A stretch of DNA of 64,000 nt from Candidatus Bathyarchaeota archaeon. GTDB lineage: Archaea; Thermoproteota; Bathyarchaeia; 40CM-2-53-6. A program made the translations under genes and the position numbers. Positions 17,461-49,617 of the stretch are shown here, in pieces. Numbering within the stretch: the first letter of the stretch is position 1; each line of letters starts with the position of its first letter. The notes below the pieces were generated by a model, which saw only the letters and a program-made list of their open reading frames with translations, was not told where the DNA came from and searched no databases. The DNA is taken from NCBI GenBank assembly GCA_005888745.1, contig VBBS01000028.1, positions 50,375 through 114,374 on the forward strand, given 5' to 3'.

Positions 17461-17790
17461 ATGTGGCGGAGGGCTCTGTTAACTTGTCGTCGGATGCCTC
17501 TCTGGCTTATACCCGGAGTTTGGGCGTTTGTCGTTTTGTCATGTTGGCTTTCAAGTCTGTCTGGCAATACTATGTTCCATCAAGCGATGTTCTCCGATTG
17601 TTGGACGTGTTCAGGAGGATGGTTAACGAGTCTTTACGGATTGGAACCCGACGCCTACGGTAATCCCTGGAGTCGATGCCCCGAAGCTAACTCAACCGAC
17701 GAAGAGTTAACAGAACCACAGAACCTCAAGTGGTCGCTTTACGCAACAGGATTTCACCTGGTACGACCAACATTTCCCTGTACATGTTGA
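17461..17790 (+). CDS. Possible small membrane protein, uncertain
   Basis: From ATG 17461 the frame gives 109 residues, with a basic N-terminus and a hydrophobic stretch (about residues 12-33, MPLWLIPGVWAFVVLSCWLSSL), then a Cys/Trp-containing tail. It overlaps the 3' end of the convergent GNAT gene by 65 bp, which counts against it. An alternative frame (17379-17663) overlaps fully. Not recognised. Confidence 0.25.
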   Translation: MWRRALLTCRRMPLWLIPGVWAFVVLSCWLSSLSGNTMFHQAMFSDCWTCSGGWLTSLYGLEPDAYGNPWSRCPEANSTDEELTEPQNLKWSLYATGFHLVRPTFPCTC

Positions 17791-25651: not shown

Positions 25652-25904
25652 CGATACCCCAACCTGTCCCGATAGAATGGCAGGGTCTCATCTGCTCTGG
25701 TTTCTCCACCCTTGGGAATCTCGCGCCCGAACAAGCGTTGACCTATCTCAGTCGTCCTAAACCGACTTCTAAACCAAAGAAGCCCCTGCTTCATAAATGC
25801 ATTACGTTGGGCGGCACCGTCAATTCTTCGGTTGTTGTTTGGTGGCGGGAGCTTCGGTCCTCTCTAACCGTTATGTTCGAGTAATGATTCACTACAAGTT
25901 GGGC

Positions 25905-26234
25905 GGTTCGTCGTATGAGCTCGTCGCGATGACGTGAGGGGAGTGACCTCGACCAGGCGACGGGTCTGAACTGGGTTGCCGGTTGGTTGGCCCATCGTAA
26001 AATCCTTGCCTGGCAACGGGCCAAGCTACCACGCTATGGGCGTGAGGGGGCGGTTGAGGTTCGACCGTTCCCTGCCAAGAAGAGACTACGTGTCTCTAAG
26101 GGCGCAAGGGCTGTCAGGTGAAGCAGTGAAGGGGAACCCGCCGACGGTAATCGCCCGGGTCGATGAGAGCAATTCTAGTCCTCGAACAACCGAATACTTG
26201 GCAGAGCCCGCTGGGCACGTCTAGTCCCTCTGCC
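25905..26234 (+). ncRNA. Structured RNA candidate, element A (paralogue of element B)
   Basis: Not protein-like, GC-rich, between the NusA-like gene and the YdeI remnant. It shares with 48033-48312, in the same order: GTTGCC, CGTAAAAYCCTYGCCTGGCA (written with ambiguity codes), TGAGGTTCG, CAGGKGAAGCAGYGARGGGG, GGTAATC, GAGAGCAA and ACMAACCGAA. Helices I can draw are TTGGCCC (25987-25993) with GGGCCAA (26018-26024); GTTGCC (25975-25980) with GGCAAC (26012-26017), which crosses the previous one and so is either a pseudoknot or an alternative pairing; CGGT (26051-26054) with ACCG (26064-26067); and GGCAGAG (26200-26206) with CTCTGCC (26228-26234). The pairing is kept in element B with different bases. 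Boundaries are approximate. Class unknown. Confidence 0.55.
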
Positions 26235-45886: not shown

Positions 45887-46111
45887 AAGAAAGGACAGCG
45901 GCCACTTACCCTCCTCCTGGTTTAAGGCTAGCGAAGCGACCATCGACGCGTCCCGAGTCCGCTCCCCGTATCTCCACACGTAGGGTTGACTCAGAGAATC
46001 TTTCTGAGATTGCTCTTCGCCTGGATGACTGTGATAGCCTACAAAACGGCCAGACTGAGGCCGACCCATCACGAGCTATTCTTATCAATCCGACAGCCGA
46101 TAGTTGTTCAG

Positions 46112-46161
46112 AGGAATGATTGGTTGAATCAAGAAAACATTGTTAGTGGCTTTGACCAATC
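46112..46161 (+). repeat. 50-bp repeat, copy 1
   Basis: Identical over all 50 bp to the reverse complement of 48485-48534. Its ends are themselves complementary (ATGATTGGT at 46117-46125 and ACCAATCAT at 46155-46163), so each copy could fold into a stem. It lies between psmB and the gamma-carbonic-anhydrase gene. Confidence 0.85.
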
Positions 46162-47596: not shown

Positions 47597-47956
47597 CTAG
47601 GCGTGCTTTTGCTGGAATGGTCCTATCTCGGCCTCGTACTGAATCCGCCTCAAAAACTCTTCTGCAGCCCGGGCACCTGCTGTCAGAAATTCTTCGCCTC
47701 TAGGGGTGATCCGGTAGACTTTTCGGCCCCGGCCTCCTTCAGCCTCCCACACAGCTTGCAAGTAGCCCTTCTCTTCCATTGAATGGAGCAGAGGATAGAG
47801 TGTTCCAGCGCTCAAGTAGACTTTGAATCGGTCACGTATCTCTAAGTTAACCTCGTAGCCCCAGCGCGGCTTGCTCTTGAGGAGCCGGAGGATGATAAGG
47901 TCAAGGTGGTTCTTCACCAATCTCTCTCTCCAGGCCTTATCCAGATCCTTATTCAA
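47597..47956 (-). CDS. PadR-family transcriptional regulator
   Basis: 119 residues. LDLIILRLLKSKPRWGYEVNLEIRDRF and LSAGTLYPLLHSMEEKGYLQAVWEAEGGRGRKVYRITPRGEEFL (in pieces) are the PadR winged-helix signature, followed by a short C-terminal helix for dimerisation. It is upstream of the signal-peptidase gene on the same strand and could control it or the divergent RNA element B. The effector is unknown. Confidence 0.9.
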   Translation of the reverse strand: MNKDLDKAWRERLVKNHLDLIILRLLKSKPRWGYEVNLEIRDRFKVYLSAGTLYPLLHSMEEKGYLQAVWEAEGGRGRKVYRITPRGEEFLTAGARAAEEFLRRIQYEAEIGPFQQKHA

Positions 47957-48032
47957 GCAGGCACTGTCAGCTCCTAGGTTTGCACTTTCAGTTCTCTCTG
48001 GTTTAATATTTCGTATCCACTATCCACTTCGC

Positions 48033-48312
48033 AGGCATTCGTCGAATGCACGCTGCTTACGTGGGTGATATGTGGGCATTTGGCCTGAAGGCCGAGCATC
48101 GAGTAAGCAGGATAACTGGTTGCCTCACAAAGCGTAAAACCCTCGCCTGGCAGAGGTGTGAAGCTCGCACGGTGTATTGCCGGCACTGGAGGGCTGAGGT
48201 TCGGCCCCAACGGGCTCTCAGGGGAAGCAGCGAGGGGGAACCCGACGACGACGGCGGTAATCCTCAGAGTTGACGAGAGCAAGTCAAGTCTAACCAACCG
48301 AAGACTTGACGG
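48033..48312 (+). ncRNA. Structured RNA candidate, element B (paralogue of element A)
   Basis: About 280 bp divergent from padR, with a TATA-like TTTAATATT at 48002-48010 placed to start transcription near 48033. Helices: TGCTTAC with GTAAGCA around GGCCTGAAGGCC (5' domain); TCACA (48125-48129) with TGTGA (48157-48161); CCTC (48141-48144) with GAGG (48153-48156); loop GGCA (48149-48152) with TGCC (48121-48124); GGGC (48191-48194) with GCCC (48204-48207); GCTCTC (48214-48219) with GAGAGC (48275-48280); and GTCAAGTC (48283-48290) with GACTTGAC (48303-48310). Conserved blocks are shared with element A. No known RNA class was recognised, and translated frames are not protein-like. Confidence 0.6.
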
Positions 48313-48484
48313 AATCTTCAAGCAACACCAGAGCTCTCTTTGAAACCTACAACCCCAAACAATTGCCCCTTAACGCTTTCTAGGTTTTTGCAGACGTTTG
48401 AACTCATCGATACATTGGGGTTTTCACAAACGAGTGTCAGACCGGAAAAACTCTGGGGAACGATAATCTCCGTCCCATGCTAGG

Positions 48485-48534
48485 GATTGGTCAAAGCCAC
48501 TAACAATGTTTTCTTGATTCAACCAATCATTCCT
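48485..48534 (-). repeat. 50-bp repeat, copy 2 (inverted relative to copy 1)
   Basis: Exact reverse complement of 46112-46161 with no mismatch. Sequence outside the 50 bp does not match, so the unit is sharply bounded. It lies 70 bp upstream of the small membrane protein gene. The rest of 48313-48605 shows no gene. Confidence 0.85.
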
Positions 48535-48605
48535 CGCTAAGGACTTAGGCACTCGACAGGAATAAACCTACCTCTTTCTGGTGTGGGCTGAATTGAGTAC
48601 ATAAA

Positions 48606-48909: not shown

Positions 48910-49131
48910 TTGGCCGTCCTCAAAGTTGACGACAGGTACAGGGTTCTTCTCGACAAAGAAGTGCGGGAACTTCTGAAGGTCGCTCCTGGCGACAAGGTCC
49001 TGGCTATTCCCTACTCAGAAGGAGTGCTCATCACTTCTCTTAAAGGAAAACGATTCAAGACTTCCCTGGCGGGCTTCCGGTACCGGGAAGAGAGCCACGA
49101 AGCCTCCAAGTACCTCTTCAAGAAGAACTAA
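48910..49131 (+). CDS. AbrB/SpoVT-type antitoxin
   Basis: 73 residues from TTG 48910: VLKVDDRYRVLLDKEVRELLKVAPGDKVLAIPYSEGVLI, the swapped-hairpin AbrB fold used by VapB-like antitoxins, then a basic, flexible tail that would cap the toxin. It is three bases upstream of a PIN-domain gene, a classical type II toxin-antitoxin order. A TATA-like TAATATGATAAAA lies about 20 bp upstream. Confidence 0.8.
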   Translation: MAVLKVDDRYRVLLDKEVRELLKVAPGDKVLAIPYSEGVLITSLKGKRFKTSLAGFRYREESHEASKYLFKKN

Positions 49132-49134
49132 CCA

Positions 49135-49533
49135 GTGCCGGTTCTCGACACGGTCGTACTCTTCGGTGCAGCCGATCCCAAAGACCCTCATCACGAGAAG
49201 GCAACCTTTCACCTCGCACATTTGATCCAACCTGGCTTCTACCTCGCATCCTTCGCACTCCTCGAGTTTGATATAGTGATGAAGAGTCGCTCAATGAGCT
49301 ACCTTGAGAGAATGGTGAGGCACGCGCTGCTAGCCCGGGACCACCCAGCAACAACCTCCAAGGTGAAGGCACTCTCCCCTCAGGTCTTGTATCTGACCTC
49401 CAGAATAGAAGGCGAGGAAAAGGTCGACTATTTTGACGCCGGAGTGGCCGCTGAAGCCCAAGCCTTGGATGGAAACGTCGTTTCCACAGACTCGGTCTTT
49501 GACCGAATATCCGGGGTCAGAAGGGTCTGGTGA
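49135..49533 (+). CDS. VapC-like PIN-domain toxin (ribonuclease)
   Basis: 132 residues from GTG 49135. PIN acidic residues are in VLDTVVLFGAADP (D4), the ALLEFDIVM helix (E near 43), VDYFDAGVAAEAQAL (D near 101) and VSTDSVFDRI (D near 118). In VapC proteins these bind Mg and cleave specific RNAs. The start region lacks the usual 'D.N' after the first Asp (DTVV). It is cotranscribed with the AbrB-type antitoxin. Confidence 0.8.
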   Translation: MPVLDTVVLFGAADPKDPHHEKATFHLAHLIQPGFYLASFALLEFDIVMKSRSMSYLERMVRHALLARDHPATTSKVKALSPQVLYLTSRIEGEEKVDYFDAGVAAEAQALDGNVVSTDSVFDRISGVRRVW

Positions 49534-49589: not shown

Positions 49590-49617
49590 GACGGCGATGA
49601 TTGGTCAAAGTTACTCG
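49590..49617 (-). repeat. Partial copy 3 of the 50-bp repeat family
   Basis: The segment beginning GACGGCGATGATTGGTCAAAG, 21 bp less its final base, equals the end of copy 1 plus its flank on the opposite strand. A second ACCAAT follows shortly, so ATTGGTC...GACCAAT form short inverted ends. It lies between the PIN toxin and the convergent RNase HII gene. Confidence 0.6.

Follow-up and report, generated by a model that had tools for sequence, protein, structure and literature searches.

Element B, a 357-bp stretch of an archaeal genome (47960-48316, forward strand), is a transposable element without a protein gene, and by sequence and structure, namely scaffold homology and a shared covarying fold, it belongs to the omegaRNAs of OMEGA systems. 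With a probability of roughly three in four, we read it as a MITE-like, non-autonomous omegaRNA transposon for which mobility would come from a putative DDE-type transposase and retention from TnpB in trans. The window, i.e., the whole 64,000-nucleotide stretch that was analyzed, comes from a 2.2-Mb, 93% complete MAG of a Candidatus Bathyarchaeota archaeon, whose genus was judged from the named relatives of its TnpB to be one of soil Bathyarchaeia.

Boundaries and insertion site of element B

A sequence-only reading had placed an RNA at 48033-48312 and proposed a regulatory or catalytic RNA, or the RNA component of a mobile element whose protein gene has been lost or lies elsewhere. The true element starts about 73 bp further left (Table 1), and the mobile-element proposal agrees with what was found, since B carries what reads as a TnpB omegaRNA between terminal inverted repeats (TIR) and target-site duplications (TSD), and intact tnpB genes are present at other loci of the genome. 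The right-end consensus of the family, read inward (GGTTCTGTCAAGTCTTCGGTTG), is an inverted match to the left consensus; in B, both repeats are degenerate. The landing point of B was the start codon of padR (PF03551): the left duplication overlaps this codon (TTG, complement of 47954-47956), and the element now lies between padR, which is on its left and divergent to it as previously described, and the former upstream region of that gene.

Table 1. Features of elements A, B, and C in the window
Feature	Coordinates	Strand	Remarks
Element B, putative TAM, TTA, directly 5′ of left duplication	47949-47951	+	TTA also in the empty site of congeners
Element B, left TSD, TTCAAGCA, 8 bp	47952-47959	+	8/8 identical to 48317-48324
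Element B, left TIR, GGCACTGTCAGCTCCTAGGTTT, degenerate	47960-47981	+	Family consensus GGCACTGTCAACTCTTCGGTTG
Element B, TATA-like TTTAATATT, possible RNA promoter	48002-48010	+	Sequence only
Element B, RNA 5′ domain, opening with near-invariant TCGTC	48034-48187	+	Alignment of copies
Element B, RNA 3′ domain, omegaRNA scaffold	48188-48316	+	83% identity to the tnpB end in L004/L031
Element B, GCTCTC, 5′ strand of omegaRNA core helix	48214-48219	+	Partner 48275-48280, covarying
Element B, GAGAGC, 3′ strand of omegaRNA core helix	48275-48280	+	Partner 48214-48219
Element B, terminal hairpin, 8 bp, overlapping right TIR	48283-48310	+	Arms GTCAAGTC 48283-48290 / GACTTGAC 48303-48310
Element B, right TIR, ending GACGGAATC	48295-48316	+	Family consensus GACAGAACC
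Element B, right TSD, TTCAAGCA, predicted first 8 nt of guide	48317-48324	+	
Element B, predicted guide segment, TTCAAGCAACACCAGAGCTC	48317-48336	+	From TAM position; length assumed from known TnpB guides
Element A, full-length RNA-only copy, 396 bp	25813-26208	+	TSD 7/8
Element A, left flank, TTA and left TSD CGTTGGGC	25802-25804, 25805-25812	+	
Element A, right TSD, CGCTGGGC	26209-26216		
Element C, internally deleted tnpB element	17472-17717	+	Left end with tnpB N-terminus joined directly to omegaRNA 3′ end/right end

A search of the family with the joined flanks of B recovered the uninserted site in five congeners (G016, G004, G005, G010, and G013). These sites contain one copy of TTCAAGCA or of a closely similar sequence (for instance, the aligned GATCCTTATTCAAGCAACACC), directly preceded by TTA in G016, G004, and others. 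Since the site is empty in congeners, element B is a lineage-specific insertion, and a recent one. The empty site in G004 (L276) matches the predicted B guide over at least its first 17 nt; the predicted target of this guide is TTA-TTCAAGCAACACC...

The repeats already seen to bracket this segment form a perfect 51-bp inverted repeat (46111-46161 / 48485-48535) around ~2.3 kb that holds genes for a gamma-carbonic-anhydrase-like hexapeptide protein and a signal-peptidase-like protein, padR, and element B. The two arms are near palindromes themselves (GATTGGTCAAA...TTCAACCAATC), with a 26-nt partial copy at 49590-49615, and the repeat is possibly another small mobile repeat. Just right of B (48910-49533), a small AbrB-like ORF precedes the gene of a PIN-domain protein (PF01850), and the two are likely a VapBC-type toxin-antitoxin pair.

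Copies in the genome and its relatives

The genome-wide homologue search that the sequence-only reading had suggested yielded 42 related stretches in the same genome, of which ~35 are without tnpB, the others being located at tnpB genes; in three of them (L004, L005, and L021) the TnpB C-terminus is immediately upstream of the RNA sequence. Full-length RNA-only copies usually measure 385 to 400 bp. At their projected ends, an 8-bp duplication is free of mismatches in 18 of 52 full-length copies and matches at 7/8 positions or better in 27 of 52. Element A, which had been noticed as a second copy of the same RNA, is indeed a full-length one and is typical of the family; B, previously considered the better-formed copy, is among the more divergent ones and has no hairpin arm between GACCG and GGCGC, where most copies carry one. 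The TATA-like box described in B is present, and at its position most other copies read GTTATGTT, without an obvious TATA box, a good TATA-like sequence being perhaps found in L022 as well.

The pattern of the 5′ domain occurs in 21 copies in this genome, in 12, 8, 5, 4, 4, 1, and 1 copies in seven congeners, and once in a sister genus, with zero copies in 12 of the 21 family genomes. Some insertions are common to species, with the same flanks in L003/L120, L006/L127, and L028/L131. Element C, with its internal deletion, is intermediate between tnpB elements and the RNA-only ones. A second RNA-only subfamily of ~360 bp, with ends GGCTCTGTTGACTTGTCGAT, perfect 8-bp duplications, and TTR (TTA or TTG), was observed in a sister genus (L112, L122, L136, and L137 in G018), so elements of the RNA-only kind may have had more than one origin. 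Several congeners contain other GGTTCTG-like ends exactly where element A is inserted (L293-L297 and L308-L315), and G010 has a 1.3-kb insert there with a near-same duplication (CGTTAAGC/TGTTGAGC). An in situ replacement of a tnpB element by element A was rejected, as this insert has similar ends without TnpB similarity.

The 3′ half of the element is an RNA shared with tnpB 3′ ends

The sequence of the 3′ half of B also occurs at the end of tnpB genes of the genome. RNA-only and tnpB elements share the core GAGGTTC...TGAAGC...GGGAACC...AATCC..GAGTCGATG..., with a final ACAGAACC, or, when written with its variable helix, GAGGTTC...(X6)AGNTGAAGC...GGGAACC...AATCC..GAGTCGAT(Y6)AAG...ACAGAACC. 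In RNA-only copies, X6 and Y6 are GCTCTC and GAGAGC, which pair with each other, both strands having been pointed out before in B; in tnpB elements, they read GCCTCC/GGAGGC, CGGGGC/GCCCCG, CGGAGC/GCTCCG, CCCGCC/GGCGGG, or CGATGC/GCATCG. Across 14 diverse RNA-only and tnpB elements, 78 of 84 pairs of this helix are kept, with up to 5 pair types per position. The consensus structure of 46 aligned RNA-only copies contains 27 pairs with compensatory changes, compared to 14.2 ± 2.5 in shuffled alignments (0/500). The helix of the terminal hairpin, present in B as a perfect 8-bp stem with AACCAACCGAA in its loop just as reported earlier, corresponds to helix 16 of the consensus and includes 6 pairs with two-sided changes. 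The RNA structure of the family is under selection. Single-sequence folding energies are barely beyond chance (z of -1.5 for B, with 18/200 shuffles as good, and -1.7 for A). Given that the near-invariant TCGTC/GAYGA pairing and the GCTCTC/GAGAGC helix share two bases, the 5′ fold is given as two alternatives.

The possibility had been raised that the similarity comes from a protein-coding remnant. This holds insofar as the 3′ ~130 to 155 nt corresponds to the tnpB 3′ end, but the tnpB frame is interrupted by stops in 47 of 51 copies, which rules out a remnant under coding selection. Together with the covarying helices, these broken frames indicate that the 3′ half is kept as RNA. The ~150-nt 5′ domain is common to the RNA-only copies and gave no BLAST match to tnpB loci. 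Rfam covariance models, including that of the HEARO/IscB-type omegaRNA, gave no match at gathering or relaxed thresholds.

TnpB nucleases and the elements that carry them

TnpB is the presumed ancestor of Cas12, and in prokaryotes it is familiar from IS200/605 and IS607 elements. The zinc-finger/RuvC domain of TnpB (PF07282) has 19 matches in the genome, and several of the genes are intact, including the catalytic triad; the RuvC acidic residues D161/E245/D335 are invariant in the TnpB family. The identity of these proteins is given by PF07282 in 7 of 7, by guided_TnpB/Cas12f models, and by matches to solved TnpB and Cas12f structures. The elements that encode them have IS6-like ends (GGYTCTGT...) and 8-bp duplications, with tnpB as the sole gene. 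Such tnpB-only TIR/TSD elements were found in Bathyarchaeia, in Thaumarchaeota, and in an Asgard MAG.

A one-sided TTR motif adjoins the duplication

To define insertion sites for a motif analysis, the duplication alone was used and shared insertions were removed, leaving 49 independent sites. TTR is found directly 5′ of the left duplication at 38 of these sites (23 of 29 RNA-only and 15 of 20 tnpB elements) compared to a background of 2.7% in these flanks (binomial p ≈ 7e-50), and its mirror image on the right side at only 1 of 49. If the guide starts at the duplication, TnpB needs its target-adjacent motif (TAM) exactly 5′ of the duplication on the empty allele. The motif is one-sided and tied to the direction of the RNA, which is unexpected for a transposase with symmetric ends. 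We regard TTR as the probable TAM of TnpB and its position as evidence of guide function that is strong without being conclusive; TTR may instead be the target preference of the transposase itself, combined with an asymmetry of its ends.

Search for the transposase

Neither a Y1 transposase (PF01797), nor an IS6-type DDE_Tnp_IS240 domain (PF13610), nor unpaired TIRs bracketing a transposase were found in this 93% complete MAG. Ends of the form GG...cTGTt and 8-bp repeats are known from IS6 elements (PMC7986276, PMC6807381). A search for the IS6 DDE domain in 60 relatives gave a single match in the same genus, a SWIM-DDE gene without matching ends (G005). Among the 12 genomes with the best tnpB elements, some IS6-like genes were detected, one with GGCGCTGTAAACTT ends (L328) and with no proven partner; an IS6-like element with GGCTCTGTTACTTTAAG ends occurs in the same class (L157). 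Proteins of ~380 aa combining a SWIM zinc finger and DDE_Tnp_IS240 are encoded, apparently as solitary genes, in G005 (L146) and G015 (L315:1-1900), where, at the element A site, a broken relative is located ~1 kb inward from a GGTTCTGTTAAGTCTTC end. The SWIM-DDE proteins are candidates for the missing transposase.

Comparison with known systems

The OMEGA systems of IS200/IS605 and IS607 elements (e.g., ISDra2) share with the elements described here a nuclease of the TnpB family, an omegaRNA that overlaps the 3′ end of tnpB and stops at the right end of the element, a guide (here a predicted one) taken from the right flank, and a TAM-like motif left of the target. They differ in that the present elements have TIRs and 8-bp duplications and neither a Y1 nor a serine transposase, and in that most copies encode the RNA only, with an extra 5′ domain. 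IS200/IS605 elements carry a Y1 transposase and have neither target duplications nor terminal inverted repeats; membership of B in that family was discarded, with TIR and 8-bp TSD present and no PF01797 in the genome. IS1341-type elements likewise consist of tnpB without a transposase, but most of their ends are IS605-like hairpins, with no TIR/TSD described (PMC9956272). GG(Y)(W)CTGT ends and 8-bp target duplications are instead shared with the IS6/IS26 family, including archaeal IS6-like elements, and its MITEs, although no transposase gene is present inside the elements studied here or in their genome; no TnpB cargo or omegaRNA is described in a review of the IS6 family (PMC7986276).

The nearest parallel is Fanzor on the TIR/TSD transposons of eukaryotes and their viruses, an RNA-guided TnpB homologue sometimes found on non-autonomous elements without a transposase (PMC10711439). 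Fanzor elements are nevertheless eukaryotic and retain the protein, RNA-only copies not being reported there, and their duplication is part of the RNA scaffold (PMC10711439), whereas the position of TTR implies that here it opens the guide. In the open-licence papers searched, neither archaeal tnpB on TIR/TSD elements nor omegaRNA-only MITEs were found to be described; subscription papers could hold such a report.

Proposed mechanism and alternative explanations

In the favored reading, a DDE-type transposase with an IS6-like end preference would move tnpB elements and RNA-only elements alike. An RNA-only copy would be transcribed from its left part through its right end, giving an RNA whose guide would consist of the duplication and the right flank, and the additional 5′ domain of ~150 nt probably stands in for the mRNA context of a normal omegaRNA by providing a promoter and a 5′ folding of its own. 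TnpB produced from another locus would bind this RNA, then find and cut an allele that lacks the element (TTR plus protospacer), and repair from the element-bearing copy would restore or spread the element. RNA-only copies would in this way be hyperparasites of tnpB elements. Such a drive of TnpB against empty alleles has been demonstrated for IS200/605 (PMC11870625). A variant in which the RNA-only elements form a class of selfish elements with a guide RNA as their one gene product, and in which TnpB in trans steers the insertion itself to TTR targets, as an RNA-guided or TnpB-coupled transposition for which the DDE-type transposase provides mobility, seems to us improbable.

That B is a plain MITE is unlikely. 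It would then be a dead deletion derivative of tnpB elements that a transposase has amplified, the omegaRNA would be kept solely for its overlap with the right end required by that enzyme, and TTR would be the target preference of the transposase. In IS200/605 elements, the TAM is the same as the TnpA target, and the present family has TIRs, TSDs, and internal deletion derivatives such as element C. MITEs of the IS6 family are also known (PMC7986276). However, conservation with compensatory changes extends ~300 nt inward and includes a helix far from the TIR, the 5′ domain is no leftover of tnpB, and a TTR on one side only at 38 of 49 sites would not be expected of a symmetric TIR transposase without a known target sequence.

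It is far less probable that the RNA-only copies are domesticated guides, retained by the host to direct TnpB in regulation or defense as TldR proteins do. The insertions common to species and the position of B at the padR start fit such a role, but the copies are patchy (21 in this genome, whereas 12 of the 21 family genomes have none), B was inserted recently, the guides correspond to the flanking insertion site, as they do in selfish elements, and the catalytic triad is intact in several tnpB genes. As for an independent regulatory or catalytic RNA (riboswitch, ribozyme, or sRNA) acting on padR or its neighbors, as the sequence-only reading had also considered, a strong structure and a position divergent to padR would be in keeping with it, but there is no Rfam family, the TIR/TSD and the empty site show mobility, other copies lie on many different contigs, and the sequence is homologous to tnpB omegaRNA ends. 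Such a role has no support and is not needed to explain B, and we give it almost no credence.

TnpB on archaeal TIR/TSD elements is an arrangement so far reported for eukaryotic Fanzors. In the favored reading, an omegaRNA would have turned into an element of its own, which has to use TnpB in trans. The duplication sites also give a TAM prediction, TTR, for an uncharacterized family of compact nucleases. Splitting the guide RNA from the nuclease gene is a needed step toward type V CRISPR systems, and these genomes would offer a natural test case for it.
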